Positions 2,902-7,180 of a stretch of 11,758 nt of DNA are shown in pieces. The position numbers and the translations under genes are program-made. The notes below the pieces were generated by a model that worked only from the letters and a program-made list of their open reading frames with translations, ran no database searches and was not told the DNA's origin. Origin of the DNA: Candidatus Woesearchaeota archaeon (lineage in GTDB: Archaea; Nanobdellota; Nanobdellia; Woesearchaeales; UBA11576); the NCBI GenBank assembly GCA_016219765.1, contig JACRKM010000160.1, forward strand, positions 1 through 11,758, given 5' to 3'. Every line of letters starts with the position of its first letter. The first letter of the stretch is position 1.

Positions 2902-2910
2902 ATCTGAACC
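2902..2910. repeat. Target-site duplication, left side of element A
   Basis: ATCTGAACC abuts the first G of the element's GGCTCTGTAG end and is repeated exactly at 3359-3367 on the other side. Confidence 0.9.
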
Positions 2911-2964
2911 GGCTCTGTAGAAAATCTTAATTGGCCGGCACCGCGAGGCTCGACGCGATCGCTC

Positions 2965-2985
2965 GATAAGAGCATAGCTCTTATC
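2965..2985. repeat. Perfect triloop hairpin in element A
   Basis: A 9-bp stem GATAAGAGC / GCTCTTATC encloses the loop ATA. A second AAGAGC at 2990-2995 could pair with the same GCTCTT arm, so two mutually exclusive hairpins are possible. The same arrangement is kept in copy B. Confidence 0.85.
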
Positions 2986-3120
2986 ATCTCAAGAGCGGGC
3001 ACGCCTGCAGCGCGCCCACTGCGAGTTGTGACGACAGCAGGAGGCCTGCACCACCACGCCAAGCTCGTGATAGTGAACGTGCACTCGACGAGCTGACATT
3101 CCCCCCGATGTGCCTTCCCC

Positions 3121-3141
3121 ATAAGAGAGTGCCTCCCTTAT
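3121..3141. repeat. Triloop hairpin with one mismatch in element A
   Basis: ATAAGAGAG and CTCCCTTAT flank the loop TGC. The corresponding copy B hairpin is perfect, so copy A carries one A/C mismatch. Confidence 0.8.
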
Positions 3142-3281
3142 CAACCCACATCAAGGCAGGCATGAAGCCTGCCGAATACCGACGAGCTCTGTCCCCTTCG
3201 TCGTCCGATTGGAGCGAAGCGAAAATCGGACTTGAGATCGAGTGCCAGCGGATCGATGACCGCTGGGGCGTCCAACTTGTC
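3142..3281. repeat. Conserved 140-bp hairpin core shared by elements A and B
   Basis: This is the most conserved part of the two elements. It contains GGCAGGC/GCCTGCC (3155-3173), a CGACGA/TCGTCG pair, GTCCGATT/AATCGGAC around a 13-nt loop, and CCAGCGG/CCGCTGG. An apparent frame starting MKPAEYRRALSP is shared with copy B, but a one-base indel right after RWG puts the two copies into different frames, so I do not call a protein. Confidence 0.8.
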
Positions 3282-3358
3282 AGCGCGCAGGTGCTTCTTT
3301 CTATCTCTCGCGGAAAGGCGGTGGTGGTGAGCGTGCCGGTGATATTTTCTACAGGGCC

Positions 3359-3367
3359 ATCTGAACC
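3359..3367. repeat. Target-site duplication, right side of element A
   Basis: ATCTGAACC directly follows the terminal GGGCC of the element and is identical to 2902-2910. Confidence 0.9.
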
Positions 3368-3372
3368 AGCGT

Positions 3373-3388
3373 GTTTAAATATATATTG
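3373..3388. promoter_or_regulatory. TATA element, probably bidirectional before element A inserted
   Basis: TTTAAATATATATT is centred about 23 nt before the GTG at 3404, right for a leaderless transcript of the plus-strand aminotransferase gene. On the minus strand the same AT block (AATATATATTTAAA) would, with element A and one duplication copy removed, start transcription near 2899, about 23 nt before the methyltransferase ATG. With the element present, a minus-strand start falls at the element's end, near 3356. Confidence 0.6.
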
Positions 3389-3403
3389 TTCTTCGCCTGG
3401 CTT

Positions 3404-4300
3404 GTGGCAAACCAGAGGGAAAATGCAAAACAGAAAGCGCAACAGGCGCTGATTGAAGACATCCTGAGAGCATACACTCGTTGCAAATGCGTGCGCTTGG
3501 TCAATCGAGGAAATGCTGCAATACTCTGCGCACTCGTGATGGTACAAGAACTGTCGCGTAAAGCAACAAAGGCCGGGAGGCAAAGCAGCAACACGCGCAA
3601 TGTAATCCTCGTCCCTGACCAAGGCGGCTGGATCTCTTTTGAAACTTATCCGCCGTTGCTTGGATTCGAGGTTGAGCTGGTGAAGACCAATCGAGGAATC
3701 ATCGACATTACTAATCTAGAAGAAAAATCAAAGAGCGCTGCTGCACTCATCGTCACAAGCTTTGCAGGTTATTTCGCAGAGCAGCCGATTGCAGAGATCG
3801 CAGGAGTCTGTCATAAGAATGGCTGTCTTATCATCGAAGATGCATCTGGATCTCTCGGCGATGCTGTACTCTGCGATGGCCGCGTTGTTGACATAATCGT
3901 CGGCAGTTTTGGAAATCACAAGCCAGTTAATAACGGTTACGGAGGTTTTGTGGCGACAAATAACAAGGAATTATTCGACATTGGATCGATTGTTTTTTCA
4001 ATGACTAACTTTTATCCAGACTATGCATATTTGCTTGAGAAGCTCAAAGAAGCCCCTGCGCGGATTGCGTTCTTTTTTGAAAAACAGGCGGCAGTTAAAC
4101 ACGATATAAAAAAACTTGATGTCGAAATCATTCATCCTGCGCTTCGCGGCCTGAATGTTGCTGTGAAACCAAAGAATAGCAACGACAGAAAAAGGATTCT
4201 TGAGTATTGTAAAAAAGAAGAGTTTGAAACAGTCCAATGCCCAAAGTATATCCGCGTCAACGAGGAGGCAGTCTGCATAGAACTCAAGCGGCTGCCATAA
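3404..4300 (+). CDS. DegT/DnrJ/EryC1/StrS-like PLP-dependent aminotransferase-fold protein
   Basis: 298 aa from the GTG at 3404. A frame-consistent GTG at 3371 lies inside the TATA box and is rejected. A helix ending VNRGNAAI (about 34-40) resembles the phosphate-loop start of the family. EDASGSLGD carries the Asp (about 146) that should pair with the PLP pyridine nitrogen, and GSFGNHKPVNNGYGG matches the SFxxxKxxxxGxGG motif, with the candidate Schiff-base lysine at about 173. Family members usually act on nucleotide-linked keto-sugars in surface glycan or antibiotic pathways and are around 370 aa, so this one is short, mainly at the C-terminus. No sugar-pathway gene is adjacent, so the substrate is unknown. 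The transcript is probably leaderless. Confidence 0.72.
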   Translation: MANQRENAKQKAQQALIEDILRAYTRCKCVRLVNRGNAAILCALVMVQELSRKATKAGRQSSNTRNVILVPDQGGWISFETYPPLLGFEVELVKTNRGIIDITNLEEKSKSAAALIVTSFAGYFAEQPIAEIAGVCHKNGCLIIEDASGSLGDAVLCDGRVVDIIVGSFGNHKPVNNGYGGFVATNNKELFDIGSIVFSMTNFYPDYAYLLEKLKEAPARIAFFFEKQAAVKHDIKKLDVEIIHPALRGLNVAVKPKNSNDRKRILEYCKKEEFETVQCPKYIRVNEEAVCIELKRLP

Positions 4301-4301
4301 A

Positions 4302-4321
4302 ATCCAGTCATTTTCTACTGG
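4302..4321 (+). terminator. Possible hairpin after the aminotransferase gene
   Basis: ATCCAGT and ACTGGAAT flank an 8-nt loop containing TTTT, starting just after the stop codon. The stem is short and no strong T-run follows it, so a termination role is tentative. The rest of the gap to 4395 holds an AT-rich TATA candidate (AGATTAAAAAAC, 4331-4342). Confidence 0.3.
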
Positions 4322-4384
4322 AATAGGCAAAGATTAAAAAACAACAAACGCTCTCTTTCATTTAGATTCCACTATTGTGTTGCT

Positions 4385-4391
4385 GAGGTGA
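4385..4391 (+). promoter_or_regulatory. Shine-Dalgarno site of the zinc-ribbon gene
   Basis: GAGGTGA lies 4 nt before the ATG at 4396 and is complementary to the archaeal 16S 3' end. It fixes the start and shows that this mRNA has a leader, unlike several neighbours. Confidence 0.75.
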
Positions 4392-4395
4392 CCGT

Positions 4396-4809
4396 ATGCC
4401 AGTCCGCGAACCAGAATCAATGAATGAGCTTGTCTACTTCACAAACCGCACATTGGACAACAAAGGATTAGCAAAAGTGTGGGTGTACCGCCAGGACTGC
4501 CCGAAATGCGGGAAGGCAAAGATGGGAAAACCTGTTGAGAAGGGAAAGGTAAAAATCCGAGCGAAAGAATACGTGTGCCAGGCGTGCCATTACACTGTCG
4601 CGAAAGAAGAGTACGAATCAGGACTTACGGCGCAGGCGACATACACGTGTCCCGGATGTAAAAAATCAGGAGAGGCTGAGCTGCCGTTTAAATGGAAAAG
4701 CGTTGATGGAGTGAAAGCGCTCAAATTTTCGTGTTCAAACTGCAAAGCAAACATTCTCGTCACGAAAAAGATGAAAGAAAAAGGCGAAAGCGATAAAGAA
4801 GATGAGTGA
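4396..4809 (+). CDS. Small zinc-ribbon protein with four CxxC knuckles
   Basis: 137 aa. Four CxxC pairs are visible: CPKC (35-38), CQAC (61-64), CPGC (85-88) and CSNC (113-116). They pair into two C4 zinc ribbons, each with basic, beta-rich sequence between its knuckles. The N-terminal ~30 residues (ELVYFTNRTL) look like a short folded segment, and the C-terminus is a charged Lys/Glu/Asp tail. The architecture suggests a nucleic-acid- or ribosome-associated archaeal zinc-ribbon protein, but I cannot name a family or function. A strong Shine-Dalgarno site precedes the ATG. An alternative start at Met9 is less well placed. It converges with the 497-aa gene, with a T6 run between them. Confidence 0.75.
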   Translation: MPVREPESMNELVYFTNRTLDNKGLAKVWVYRQDCPKCGKAKMGKPVEKGKVKIRAKEYVCQACHYTVAKEEYESGLTAQATYTCPGCKKSGEAELPFKWKSVDGVKALKFSCSNCKANILVTKKMKEKGESDKEDE

Positions 4810-4872
4810 TTTCTTGTCTACTAGTCTAGTTCACGCCCAATACCCGGCGAGCACAGTCTGCTGTTGAATTGC

Positions 4873-4878
4873 TTTTTT
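4873..4878 (+). terminator. T-run terminator candidate between convergent genes
   Basis: TTTTTT in GCTTTTTTGC lies 64 nt after the zinc-ribbon stop and just before the convergent gene's end. A short U-run of this kind is enough for archaeal termination. Confidence 0.4.
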
Positions 4879-4879
4879 G

Positions 4880-6373
4880 CTAGCGTTGCTTGAGCGAGGC
4901 GTATTCCTCTGGTGTCACAAGCCGCACTTCTTTATCTTCAAAGATTGCGGCCAGATCTGCATATCCGCCCGGAGGGATTATGTACGTCCTGCAGGTATTT
5001 CTTGTCCGCGCACACGCGTCATGCTGCAGCGCGCTGCCATAGTCAACATTGTGGTCGAGCGTAATTATCTGACCTTCAACAGGATCTTCAAAAATCGTGA
5101 GATCGATGCTTTCTCTTGAGCGTGTGCTGTAACGATGCAGTTCTGGAGCGCACGCAGGCACTACAACTTCTATCTCCGGCACTATCGTATAATTGCTGCC
5201 AATACGCTGTGAATTATCTTCATCTGGCTTGTTCTGATAGTGGACGACGACAGTCGAACTAGGCAGTATTCTCTCTGCAATATTTTCCATGGCTTTGTGC
5301 GCGGCTGCCTGGCCCTCAAGCATCGAGAGAAGATTCTTTGACCCATTAATTGCCAGATGGATGCTTCCGTGCTGCGCAATCATTTCTAAAATGTTTATGG
5401 GCTCAATATCGAAAGGCAAGTGCTGGTTTTTGTAACACTTCAAAAGATCGCTCAAAGCATCCCAATGAACACGAGCAGCATCTTCTCCCACCTCCGTCTG
5501 TTCAACGATATTCTGCAATTCAAATGCAACACGCGCTTCGTGGCTGTCCATGATCGCTTGAAATCTTTCTACGAGCGCATTCAGATCAGCCATTAATTGT
5601 GCGCGCTTCTTTTCTTTCTCACGGTGGCTGATCGTGCGTTCTTCCGGCGTCGTACAGTCGCTTATGAATGGGGAGTGTGCATACAAGATTTTATCTTTCA
5701 GCCGGTAAAATGAAGCGATAGAAAGCTCAAGATGTCCAGAGCCAAGTGCATCCTTGATCGCTCTAAGCGGCAGGCGCGCCCGTTCACTGAGAGGGTCGTA
5801 GAGGGCAATCACCGAATCAATCATCCGCTGCGATTCATCCAATGTCTGAGGAACAAAGGTGGTTTTTCTGCTGTGTGGTTCTTCATCGTTCTCGCGCATG
5901 GCAAGTTCAGGATAATCTTTGTACACTTTTAGGTATTTTGGAGTCTGTTGAGTCCGTTCAAGGAGCAGGATTTCATTATCGATGTGATGCAGCTCAAGTC
6001 GACTTTCTCTGCTGTGCATCATGTACTGCTGCTGCTTAAGATATTCGATGTATTTCTTGGTGCCTTTGAGTGCAAGGCTGAGGAAGCCTTCGCTGAGTGC
6101 TTGTGTAAGGATGTCACAGAGTATTTGGCCGTATACTATCCGCTCTGCACTGAAGAAGTCAAATTGTTTTGCAGTTTTCCTTATTTCATGTTCATAAAAT
6201 TTTATAGTCCTTTCAGAGGGTTTTGCATCCCATTCATAAGCTTCCTGATCTGCTCTGCAGCGTTCAGCCTCATTCACAAGCGCTTCAAGGTTAGCAATGA
6301 GCGACCGCTGAGTAACTTTTGCACGTGATGCTGGGAATGCGCATTCCTGCTGTTGATGTATGTTGGACGACAT
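4880..6373 (-). CDS. Unknown 497-aa protein with internally repeated helical units
   Basis: No recognised domain. Residues 1-360 are predominantly helical and appear to contain a repeated unit. LIANLEALVNEAERC (25-39) resembles LMADLNALVERFQAI (260-274), and the unit tails near 87-112, 205-230 and 327-352 share a small-Gly-x-(L/I)xLA/I-x(8)-L pattern (SEGFLSLALKG, GSGHLELSIAS, QHGSIHLAING). Residues 370-497 look beta-rich and end in PEEYASLKQR. There is no signal peptide or membrane helix, so it is probably cytoplasmic. A helical solenoid or scaffold is conceivable, but I infer no function. The gene stands alone, with its own TATA box upstream at 6401-6414, and converges with the zinc-ribbon gene. 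Codon use looks like that of the neighbours, and the open length supports a real gene. Confidence 0.8.
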   Translation of the reverse strand: MSSNIHQQQECAFPASRAKVTQRSLIANLEALVNEAERCRADQEAYEWDAKPSERTIKFYEHEIRKTAKQFDFFSAERIVYGQILCDILTQALSEGFLSLALKGTKKYIEYLKQQQYMMHSRESRLELHHIDNEILLLERTQQTPKYLKVYKDYPELAMRENDEEPHSRKTTFVPQTLDESQRMIDSVIALYDPLSERARLPLRAIKDALGSGHLELSIASFYRLKDKILYAHSPFISDCTTPEERTISHREKEKKRAQLMADLNALVERFQAIMDSHEARVAFELQNIVEQTEVGEDAARVHWDALSDLLKCYKNQHLPFDIEPINILEMIAQHGSIHLAINGSKNLLSMLEGQAAAHKAMENIAERILPSSTVVVHYQNKPDEDNSQRIGSNYTIVPEIEVVVPACAPELHRYSTRSRESIDLTIFEDPVEGQIITLDHNVDYGSALQHDACARTRNTCRTYIIPPGGYADLAAIFEDKEVRLVTPEEYASLKQR

Positions 6374-6400
6374 GAATAAATCCCCGAATCGATAAGTACA

Positions 6401-6414
6401 CCGGTATTTAACTG
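6401..6414 (-). promoter_or_regulatory. TATA box of the 497-aa gene, with an upstream repeat
   Basis: CAGTTAAATACCGG on the minus strand is centred about 34 nt before the ATG at 6373, implying a leader of roughly 9 nt. The motif AGTTAAATA occurs again at about 6432-6440, 28 bp further upstream, so there are either two tandem promoters or a repeated binding site. Confidence 0.5.
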
Positions 6415-6466
6415 TTGGATAAATTATTGGATATTTAACTATTTTCTGGTAGTTATTATGAGTCGC

Positions 6467-6477
6467 GTTTATAAATG
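6467..6477 (+). promoter_or_regulatory. TATA box of the 52-codon small ORF
   Basis: GTTTATAAATG predicts transcription start near 6497, about 17 nt before the ATG at 6514. No clear Shine-Dalgarno site follows. Confidence 0.4.
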
Positions 6478-6513
6478 GTCTGGTTCTCTATAGATTTTTC
6501 ATAAGATGCATTA

Positions 6514-6672
6514 ATGACACAAGAACTGCCACATATGATAAATTTATCACAAAGATTTTTTACAAGAACTGGTTTATTAGCTCAAACATCACATTATAAG
6601 AACATTACATTGAAACAGTATATTATAGAAACATTATATTATAAGAAGCTATTGCGGAAATGGGCTCTGTAG
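6514..6672 (+). CDS. Small ORF whose stop codon was replaced by element B
   Basis: 52 codons starting MTQELPHMINLSQRFF and ending YYKKLLRKWAL, then TAG. The DNA is strongly AT-rich, where a frame this long is not expected often, and a TATA box lies at a plausible distance. The last three residues and the TAG come from the terminal repeat of element B (TGG GCT CTG TAG). With the element and one duplication copy removed, the frame would read AAA TGA, so the pre-insertion protein would be 49 aa ending LLRK. The sequence is basic, with aromatic residues, and has no recognised domain or membrane helix. It may be a genuine small protein, or chance. No neighbour suggests a role. Confidence 0.42.
   Translation: MTQELPHMINLSQRFFTRTGLLAQTSHYKNITLKQYIIETLYYKKLLRKWAL
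6654..6662. repeat. Target-site duplication, left side of element B
   Basis: GCGGAAATG precedes the terminal GGCTCTGTAG and is repeated exactly at 7172-7180. Confidence 0.9.
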
Positions 6673-6708
6673 AACGTCTTGACGAGCCGGCACCACGATG
6701 CTCGACGC

Positions 6709-6727
6709 ATAAGAGCATAGCTCTTAT
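6709..6727. repeat. Triloop hairpin in element B
   Basis: An 8-bp stem ATAAGAGC / GCTCTTAT encloses the loop ATA, 19 bp in all. AAGAGC recurs downstream (6733-6738) and could compete for the GCTCTT arm, as in copy A. Confidence 0.85.
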
Positions 6728-6888
6728 CATCTCAAGAGCGGGCACGCCTGCTGCGCGCCCACTGAGGTGAAGATCCAGATATCGTTTATACTCCATTGTG
6801 TTTTTCCTTGCGCTCACTCACCACCACGCCATGCTCGTGATACACACTGTGCTCTTTGATGACCGACATTCCCCGATGTGCCTTCCCC

Positions 6889-6909
6889 ATAAGGGAGTGC
6901 CTCCCTTAT
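6889..6909. repeat. Triloop hairpin in element B
   Basis: A perfect 9-bp stem ATAAGGGAG / CTCCCTTAT encloses the loop TGC. Copy A has one mismatch here. Confidence 0.85.
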
Positions 6910-6953
6910 TATCGAAAATCAAAGATTTTCGGAACATTCGGAATATCCGAATG
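6910..6953. repeat. 44-bp block unique to element B: two adjacent 19-bp triloop hairpins
   Basis: Hairpin one (6913-6931) is CGAAAATC / GATTTTCG around AAA. Hairpin two (6935-6953) is CATTCGGA / TCCGAATG around ATA. Copy A goes straight from the CTTAT of the preceding hairpin to CAACCCA, so this block was gained by B or lost by A as a unit. Confidence 0.85.
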
Positions 6954-7094
6954 CAACCCACCTCAAGGCAGGCATGAAGCCTGCCGAATACCGACGAGCT
7001 CTGTCCCCTTCGTCGTCCGATTGGAGCGAAGCGAAAATCGGACTTGAGATCGAGTGCCAGCGGATCGATGGCCGCTGGGGGCGTCCAACTTGTC
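6954..7094. repeat. Conserved hairpin core of element B
   Basis: Almost identical to 3142-3281. It contains GGCAGGC/GCCTGCC (6967-6985, again 19 bp), CGACGA/TCGTCG (6992-7015), GTCCGATT/AATCGGAC (7015-7043) with loop GGAGCGAAGCGAA, and CCAGCGG/CCGCTGG (7057-7078). The large loop contains GCGAAGC, known as an unusually stable DNA mini-hairpin sequence. Confidence 0.8.
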
Positions 7095-7171
7095 GGCGTG
7101 TTTCTGTGTCTTTCCATCTCTCGCAAAAGGGCGATGGTGGTGAGCGTGCCGGCGCTATTTTCTACAGAGCC

Positions 7172-7180
7172 GCGGAAATG
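7172..7180. repeat. Target-site duplication, right side of element B
   Basis: GCGGAAATG directly follows the terminal AGAGCC and is identical to 6654-6662. Confidence 0.9.

Follow-up and report, generated by a model that had tools for sequence, protein, structure and literature searches.

MITEs in front of archaeal promoters: a likely IS5-like mobiliser and a structured core common to several terminal-repeat families in Woesearchaeota

The window, a stretch of 11,758 nucleotides from a Woesearchaeota MAG, harbours two elements without genes, copy 1 of 448 bp and copy 2 of 509 bp, which were delimited by direct reading and by script (Table 1). Both possess GGCTCTGTAGAA ends, exact 9-bp duplications and an inner block GCCGGCAC/GTGCCGGC; the 12-nt ends of copy 2 are perfect inverted repeats, and the right end of copy 1 contains a single mismatch (GGCCCTGTAGAA). 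None of nine window ORFs compared with Pfam matches a transposase family, and four of the nine lack any Pfam match. The ends and inner block as re-read here, together with this Pfam result, bear out the sequence-only reading of a non-autonomous element with bipartite inverted repeats and no transposase. The gene next to copy 1 may be leaderless, a GTG that lies 45 nt beyond the end of the element being its possible start.

Table 1. Positions of the two elements and of neighbouring features in the window
Feature	Position	Strand	Remark
9-bp target duplication ATCTGAACC, left of copy 1	2902..2910	.	direct reading, script
MITE copy 1, family F1, 448 bp with inserted hairpin cassettes	2911..3358	+	
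Copy 1 left terminal repeat GGCTCTGTAGAAAAT	2911..2925	+	same as left end of the insertion sequence
Copy 1 inner arm GCCGGCAC	2934..2941	+	pairs with GTGCCGGC near right end
Copy 1 palindromic cassette ATAAGAGCATAGCTCTTAT	2966..2984	+	within first hairpin
Copy 1 structured core, 288 nt	3047..3334	+	lengthened by cassettes in CCCC-GGGG loop
Copy 1 hairpin cassettes in core loop	3121..3230	+	ATAAG..CTTAT, GGCAGGCATGAAGCCTGCC, TCCGATTGGAGCGAAGCGAAAATCGGA
Copy 1 right terminal repeat	3344..3358	-	one mismatch
9-bp target duplication, right of copy 1	3359..3367	.	
TATA-box-like TTTAAATATATA	3374..3385	+	starts 15 nt from copy 1 end
Gene after the TATA-like box of copy 1	3404..4300	+	DegT/DnrJ/EryC1 aminotransferase family match
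9-bp target duplication GCGGAAATG, left of copy 2	6654..6662	.	
MITE copy 2, family F1, 509 bp with inserted hairpin cassettes	6663..7171	+	
Copy 2 structured core, 331 nt	6817..7147	+	including cassettes
9-bp target duplication, right of copy 2	7172..7180	.	

We classify both window elements as MITEs of a family, F1, whose base form of 207-210 bp is short and non-coding, as befits a MITE; the cassette ATAAGAGCATAGCTCTTAT is missing from all 11 copies of this length. Across the MAG, GGCTCTGTAGAA ends occur 63 times when one mismatch is allowed, against five occurrences of the reversed pattern, which is far beyond chance and confirms the abundance that had been proposed from two copies. A 9-bp duplication (at most one mismatch) flanks 19 of the 20 core-bearing F1 copies with both ends on the contig, as it does, perfectly, both window copies. 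Five sets of terminal repeats surround the core described below, with duplications of 8 or 9 bp in the four readable sets: 8 bp in 3/3 elements of F2 and 7/9 of F3 (one extending to 9), and 9 bp in F4, exact in four of 17 and with one mismatch in three, rising to 12 of 17 within one mismatch once a one-base shift is permitted. The ends of F3, F4 and F5 differ from those of F1, and among 29 loci tested in one set only 12 combined a repeat with a duplication of at least 8 bp. One F2 element is nested inside an F1 element (C133), which serves in place of a before/after pair, and a left F2 end is also present in C113. The suggested recent activity is not demonstrated, eight of the 19 duplications read by script being mismatched and many ends diverged, though exact duplications and the nested insertion attest past movement.

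Woesearchaeota yielded five complete insertion sequences, 883-901 bp long, whose ends are of the F1 type (at most two mismatches); the partner of the MITEs came to light in contig-terminal copies. One of the five, L231, has an exact 9-bp duplication (CTTATAAGC), and a related element in L194 has a 9-bp duplication as well; in the other four (L225, L227, L228 and L229) none was recognised by eye. A full-length insertion sequence with the same ends, which the sequence-only reading had proposed to look for, exists, with an exact 9-bp duplication in one of five copies. Its transposase, of about 270 aa, matches PF01609 with 45 bits (cut-off 23), the only family matched at E up to 0.001, and reaches 120.4 bits against NCBIfam IS5_2, under the cut-off of 140. 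The ends common to F1 MITEs and the insertion sequence comprise 15-20 nt, and a genome of the same genus (G001) carries both MITEs and insertion-sequence ends. A predicted structure of the transposase (mean pLDDT 58.8) was not used, and a search of solved structures returned three weak matches, none of them a transposase.

In the window's MAG a search for DDE_Tnp_1 genes gave 0 matches, with a best E of only 0.09 for profile A1, so that the idea of a mobiliser encoded in this incomplete MAG was dropped. Loss of the insertion sequence during binning is plausible, given that the MAG has 81% completeness and is split into 178 contigs, and that 113 of the 120 relatives of the transposase protein among the matches listed have no contig of at least 3 kb. 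Two other candidates were discarded: 13 unpaired ends were inspected for an adjoining partner and no transposase-like ORF was seen by eye, and the MITE interior as a decayed insertion sequence failed since, past the first 20 nt or so at the left, nothing common was visible by eye. Since no DDE_Tnp_1 gene was found in the MAG, the mobiliser has to be sought among relatives, and these point to an IS5-like DDE insertion sequence of Woesearchaeota as the likely mobiliser of F1.

The flanks of the elements have a recurrent geometry. The element end and the start of the BRE/TATA promoter are about 15 bp apart, some 6 bp (the BRE) lie between the 9-bp duplication and the TATA box, and the start codon is often 45 bp from the element end. 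In 115 flanks of this MAG, 46 TATA words fall at offsets 13-17, compared with 0.31 per position elsewhere; in 25 insertion-sequence flanks, 26 such words stand at these offsets and 9 at all others. A promoter matrix built from 25 insertion-sequence flanks of other genomes, excluding two contig-terminal ends (L111 and L125, a core-less MITE of G024), matches 41 of 114 MITE flanks of the MAG at the expected offset (1-7 at seven control offsets) and 29 of 62 MITE flanks of other genomes (2-5 at four control offsets). Counted by element, the promoter is at the expected offset in 26 of 31 MITEs from other genomes and in 33 of the 48 MAG elements for which both flanks are available. Start codons, which formed no part of the matrix construction, lie at 44-46 nt 16 times in 103 MITE flanks of this MAG, 13 times in 50 of other genomes (25 of the 31 elements, six loci being too short) and eight times in 25 flanks of the insertion sequence. 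The spacing is seen in window copy 1 and not in copy 2; F2 has no promoter preference (0/3), L227 has no promoter at the fixed spacing, and two F4 elements match the matrix on both sides. As far as genome sequences can tell, insertion occurs at one set position upstream of promoters, both for the insertion sequence and for most families of MITEs; these promoters may be recognised via TBP/TFB or the bent DNA there.

The interior of the MITEs is a structured core of about 130 nt (129-132 nt in uninserted copies), composed of an outer helix, an A-rich bulge, an inner helix and a terminal CCCC-GGGG-CCCC stem. About 70 copies are present in this MAG; 70 of 74 matches were analysed, with two one-mismatch matches among those left out. 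By their right ends these 70 divide into F1 (25), F4 (19), F3 (13), F5 (5), F2 (4) and four unassigned, which include C76, a match that looks false. Five clusters of variable segments, comprising 46 of the 70 copies, cross the family borders, and C162 and C96 are chimeric copies. The core is evidently common to several terminal-repeat families. Neither this nor the promoter-directed insertion had been noticed in the sequence-only reading, with its view of a single window.

Covariation was assessed in 32 of the 38 uninserted cores (129-132 nt). Eleven of 31 pairs are changed on both sides, with 62 doubly changed cells and 97.6% of cells paired, and none of 500 shuffles, which ignore the kinship of the core copies, did as well on doubly changed pairs, doubly changed cells and pairing; the number of pair types does not exceed that of the shuffles. 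A covariance model built from this MAG alone finds the core in 55 of 193 related genomes, its own included. From an alignment of diverged MITEs, which misplaces the outer helix of the MAG's own copies, only motifs were taken. Templated correction between the arms could produce covariation of this kind.

Who moves F1, and whether it is aimed, can each be read in another way. The first bases of the ends are like those of IS6 and ISL3, as the sequence-only reading noted, but the transposase encoded by complete elements bearing such ends is of the IS5-like DDE type, the duplication measures 9 bp instead of 8, and the partner matches no IS6 or ISL3 transposase family, so that membership in either was rejected and a mobiliser of that type is extremely improbable. 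The question of the mobilising transposase is thereby largely answered, the best candidate being IS5-like. Without any targeting, elements might insert at random and survive only upstream of promoters in a compact genome, which would suit the lack of fixed spacing in F2 and window copy 2 and the general occurrence of prokaryotic MITEs in AT-rich intergenic DNA (excerpt of PMC10969869). However, survival would permit every spacing to the TATA box greater than some 15 bp, whereas a spike is seen at 13-17, start codons peak at 44-46 nt, and the autonomous insertion sequence has the same spike; we regard random insertion as very unlikely.

The nature of the core can be explained in several ways. 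On the one hand, the core could function as RNA (a small RNA, a terminator or an insulator), being transcribed and under selection either in the host or on behalf of the element. The covariation is consistent with this, as are a fold z-score of -7.5 in one copy, the recurrence of the A-rich bulge and the CCCC-GGGG-CCCC stem across archaeal families, and the small RNAs derived from MITEs in Coxiella (excerpt of PMC10969869). Only four G-U cells against 62 doubly changed ones would nevertheless be unusual under RNA selection, and a known RNA was rejected, since Rfam gave no match in the window at gathering thresholds and none in eight other loci at E up to 1, and one further match was at chance level (21 bits, gathering score 70); we consider such an RNA rather unlikely. 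On the other hand, the core could be functionless, arm-to-arm correction in palindromic DNA keeping it complementary and hitch-hiking recombination between repeats spreading it among families. The scarcity of G-U intermediates, the mosaic variable segments and the chimeric copies fit this explanation. It accounts poorly, however, for the recurrence across genera of unpaired features (A-rich bulge, loop sequence), for covariation of helix 1 over about 130 nt, and for the terminal repeats, which are palindromic too and yet lack covariation: their 15 pairs in 12 sequences show 10 broken and no doubly changed cells, unlike the 48 inner pairs with 12 broken and 20 doubly changed. A core without function thus appears equally doubtful. 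We infer instead that what preserves the core is its fold; with frequent compensatory changes and few G-U intermediates, DNA (cruciform or single strand) is the more probable form of it and RNA the less probable.

Our overall account, to which we give a probability of about 0.8, is that F1 MITEs are moved by an IS5-like element aimed upstream of promoters and that their core is exchanged among end families. The ends, the duplications, the partner in relatives, the spacing of promoters and start codons, and the covariation and sharing of the core are read from the sequences themselves. The IS5-like insertion sequence of Woesearchaeota would move the MITEs in trans via the same 15-20 nt ends, and its transposase would aim at one set position immediately ahead of the core promoter in archaea and duplicate 9 bp, followed by about 6 bp (BRE), the TATA box and, 45 bp from the element end, the start codon of an often leaderless gene. 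A fixed site of this kind would place the element outside genes and leave the core promoter intact. The core would have an origin other than the insertion sequence and be swapped by recombination or gene conversion among at least five terminal-repeat families, and therefore one cargo would be served by several transposases. A wider reading, tentative and slightly short of even odds, is a promoter-homing mobile system of DPANN archaea in which several transposases use one fixed BRE/TATA geometry, presumably read via TBP/TFB in complex with the promoter, and one folded cargo, either DNA or RNA, persists as a lineage of its own, spread through an archaeal order by swaps of terminal repeats.

The yeast element Ty3 is steered by RNA polymerase III factors. 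If our account is confirmed, a direct test becomes possible of whether a DDE transposase is guided by the basal factors of archaea; insertions would also point to leaderless promoters in the genomes of uncultured DPANN, and a promoter-directed insertion tool might be derived. The core, given its presence in so many related genomes, offers a clean case for deciding whether covariation in mobile palindromes reflects RNA function or DNA-level repair.

Prokaryotic MITEs are short, multicopy and rich in stem-loops, with terminal repeats, duplications and no gene (excerpt of PMC10969869), and the Woesearchaeota elements have all these general traits; they differ in carrying one structured core under several terminal repeats with differing duplication lengths, and hairpin cassettes at two fixed places. 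TIMEs are likewise mosaic and non-autonomous but derive from the Tn3 family (excerpt of PMC4133298), whereas here the cores are common to end families that duplicate 8 or 9 bp. Among the matches listed from the open-licence literature, there was no report of TATA-targeted insertion in archaea or of these MITEs. The ends of IS903 begin GGCT-TGT-GAA, as do those of the Woesearchaeota element, and a core-bearing GGCTTTGTTGAAAA end occurs in G155. Within IS5, the IS903 group duplicates 9 bp (excerpt of PMC3281130), as one of the five full Woesearchaeota copies does exactly, and shares with the Woesearchaeota element a single PF01609-type DDE transposase, but is 1050-1054 bp long (same excerpt) against 883-901 bp, and the Woesearchaeota transposase stays at 120.4 against the NCBIfam IS5 cut-off of 140, in an element that is archaeal and aimed at BRE/TATA promoters. 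Precise targeting of promoters is, in the literature covered, described only for bacterial elements: TnGBS-type transposases insert upstream of sigma-A promoters, at 15-17 bases from the -35 region, p-MULT 3 mostly with its right end toward the promoter, and the same source calls promoter-upstream integration by prokaryotic transposases unusual and only speculates on archaea (excerpt of PMC3942029). The Woesearchaeota elements work like these Mutator-like elements (TnGBS, ISLre2, ISKra4) in keeping a fixed distance upstream of promoters, and are not members, no Mutator family being matched by the partner transposase (PF01609 only, E up to 0.001): in place of bacterial sigma-A promoters and a Mutator-type transposase, they combine archaeal BRE/TATA promoters with an IS5-like one.

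Both elements of the window, described by the sequence-only reading as transposase-free insertions of one abundant family with inverted ends and 9-bp duplications, match that description exactly on direct reading and by script, and none of the nine window ORFs matches a Pfam transposase family. The proposed abundance was borne out in the metagenome-assembled genome (MAG; 81% complete, 178 contigs totalling 1,086,044 bases, with the window in contig 131), which holds 63 GGCTCTGTAGAA ends (at most one mismatch) versus five for the reversed control. Likewise, 9-bp duplications with no more than one mismatch flank 19 of the 20 core-bearing copies of this family (F1) with both ends. An alignment of 11 copies gives an F1 base form of 207-210 bp, and palindromic cassettes occur at two fixed places, the first hairpin and the loop closed by the central CCCC-GGGG stem; the window copies are longer because cassettes were inserted at these two places. 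Loose AT-rich repeats lie to the left of window copy 2 (see table).

Part of the F1 interior recurs elsewhere in the MAG beneath quite different ends. A pattern taken from the 3' side of this core has 74 matches in the MAG and none in the control, and the right ends of 70 cores examined belong to five end families, with four left unassigned. Once a one-base shift is permitted, 12/17 F4 duplications lie within one mismatch. Two copies have mixed ends (F1 left and F4 right in C162; F4 left and F5 right in C96), and a variable segment within the core forms five clusters that cross the families and contain 46 of the 70 copies. The simplest reading is that the core is shared through recombination between end families. 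Further ends, e.g. GGCTCTGTCCTAAAT, GGCTTCATCCAAAAA, GGCTTTGTTGAAAA and GGCTCAGTTGAAAAT, flank the core in other genera; by script, 12 of 29 loci examined have a repeat and a duplication of at least 8 bp, one has only 4 bp and 16 have none. Nesting of MITEs within MITEs is also observed, and five F2-ended elements carry a cassette 93-98% identical (58-69 nt) to one in window copy 1, within an interior that resembles a diverged core.

End families of the MITEs and positions of individual elements
Feature	Position	Sequence	Duplication	Right ends among 70 cores
F1 end		GGCTCTGTAGAAAAT	9 bp	25
F2 end		GTATTTGTTTAGCT	8 bp, 3/3	4
F3 end		GGCGTTATTGAAAA	8 bp, 7/9 (one of the 7 extends to 9)	13
F4 end		GGGGTTGGTGCGAAAAT	9 bp; 17 copies with both ends: exact in 4, one mismatch in 3	19
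F5 end		GTACGTGGAAAGCTTAGAC		5
Loose AT-rich repeats	window 6590-6655	TATTATAAGAA...		
F2 element inside F1 MITE	MAG, C133:1294-1747		8 bp, AGATTTTC	
F2 left end within F1 MITE	MAG, C113:1607-1980			
F2-ended elements with cassette	MAG, C17:959, C25:1376, C170:5183, C171:3917, C172:3737			
Insertion sequence	G055, L193:2048-2930			
Related element, 1019 bp, 305-aa transposase	G017, L194:1704-2722	ends GGCTAATATGAAAC	9 bp exact, AAATAGAAG	

Among 32 uninserted cores (129-132 nt), a structure of 31 pairs has 97.6% of its cells paired and only four G-U cells; 11 pairs are changed on both sides, in 62 cells. Sliding the structure lowers pairing to 31-55%. None of 500 shuffles matches the pairing and covariation values, a control weakened by the relatedness of the copies, and the pair-type count of 16 is not above the shuffles. 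Terminal-repeat pairs (15) of 12 short F1 elements include 10 broken cells and no doubly changed ones; inner pairs (48) include 12 broken and 20 doubly changed. A covariance model built from this MAG alone gave 29 matches (E up to 1) over 46 loci of other genomes; these include overlapping hits and hits within the same genus. It finds the core in 55/193 relatives, the MAG itself counted (E up to 0.01). Applied to a phylum sample of 279 genomes, it detects the core in 40 (E up to 0.001), every one from the window's order, of which the sample includes an unstated number.

A search of the MAG for a mobilising transposase gene found none; perhaps it was lost in binning. Deduced from relatives' genomes, the mobiliser of F1 would be an IS5-like insertion sequence. 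The sequence GGCTCTGTAGAAA is present in 15/59 genomes (the MAG and 58 relatives; control matches never exceed one per genome), and in two relatives (G001, of the same genus as the MAG, and G006) contig-terminal copies lead into the beginning or end of a transposase gene. MITEs and insertion sequence have GGCTCTGTAGAAA(A/G)TCTTAA in common at the left end, over about 20 nt. A whole element of 883 bp (about 270 codons) occurs in G055; its transposase matches PF01609 (1.4e-11), and its top NCBIfam model, IS5 transposases, scores 120.4 bits, below the cut-off of 140. The frame has no stop inside this element; it reads past the right end and on into flanking DNA. The protein collection holds 590 relatives of the transposase, and 113 of the 120 listed are without a contig of 3 kb or more. 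A named-genome scan gave 33 loci, titled Woesearchaeota (28), Nanoarchaeota (2), archaeon (1) and bacteria (2). Of five full elements (883-901 bp) with F1-type ends, one is flanked by an exact 9-bp duplication, and none was seen by eye at the other four.

Several related loci deserve mention. Hairpins lie before or over the transposase start codon at four left ends (L110, L113, L126, L146); such hairpins limit read-through translation in other insertion sequences. Some MITEs with F1-type ends enclose a different hairpin-rich interior with no evident CCCC-GGGG-CCCC core (L115, L128 and L167 in G040; L135 in G024). A copy of the insertion sequence in a bacterial MAG (L227, record titled Komeilibacteria bacterium), without promoter spacing, reflects either misbinning or transfer to a bacterium.

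Our data reveal a fixed spacing between these elements and promoters. Counting offsets from the element end into the flank, 115 flanks of core elements contain 46 TATA words at offsets 13-17, versus a mean of 0.31 per position elsewhere. The insertion sequence, which lacks the core, behaves likewise: 25 contig-terminal flanks from other genomes have 26 TATA words at 13-17 (in 14 flanks) and nine at the remaining offsets. A matrix built on such flanks reads BRE-like R-N-A-A followed by TTTATAAA; derived from these 25, it matches 41/114 MITE flanks of the MAG at the expected offset, versus 1-7 at seven control offsets. Per element, matches occur in 14/20 F1, 12/17 F4 (two on both sides) and 7/8 F3 copies, and in none of three F2 elements of the MAG. 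Elsewhere, 26/31 complete MITEs match (29/62 flanks, versus 2-5 at four control offsets), as do four of the five full insertion sequences. A start-codon test independent of the matrix (ATG opening at least 60 codons, offsets to 109) peaks 44-46 nt from the element end, with 16 versus 41 at all other offsets in the MAG (103 flanks), 13 versus 32 for MITEs of other genomes (50 flanks) and 8 versus 7 for insertion-sequence flanks. For window copy 1, TTTAAATATATA lies at offset 15, followed at offset 45 by a GTG in frame with the downstream gene, which matches a DegT-type aminotransferase family; the flanks of window copy 2 have no matrix match. F1 elements face the promoter with the right end in 13/25 cases and with the left in 4/20.

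The order of duplication, gap of about 6 bp (BRE) and TATA box suggests that the cut falls immediately outside the TFB/TBP binding region. Steering of the transposase by the TFB/TBP complex, or by the bend it makes in the DNA, would account for the spacing. Such an insertion leaves gene and promoter intact, and would thus allow dozens of copies to build up in a 1.1-Mb genome.

Among the open-licence papers listed, we found no earlier report of archaeal TATA-targeted insertion or of these MITEs, and the parts examined of a review of prokaryotic MITEs (PMC10969869) do not mention a common core of this kind. Repeats of 9 bp are described for IS903-group elements in the portion consulted of PMC3281130. 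According to the sections of PMC3942029 considered here, TnGBS and related Mutator-like elements insert 15-17 bases in front of the -35 region at sigma-A promoters, p-MULT 3 usually adjoins the promoter with its right end, and the authors term promoter-upstream insertion unusual, with only speculation for archaea, on ISH6. Compared with what is described there, the Woesearchaeota system works alike, with a fixed promoter-upstream spacing, but is not a member of the TnGBS/Mutator-like elements.
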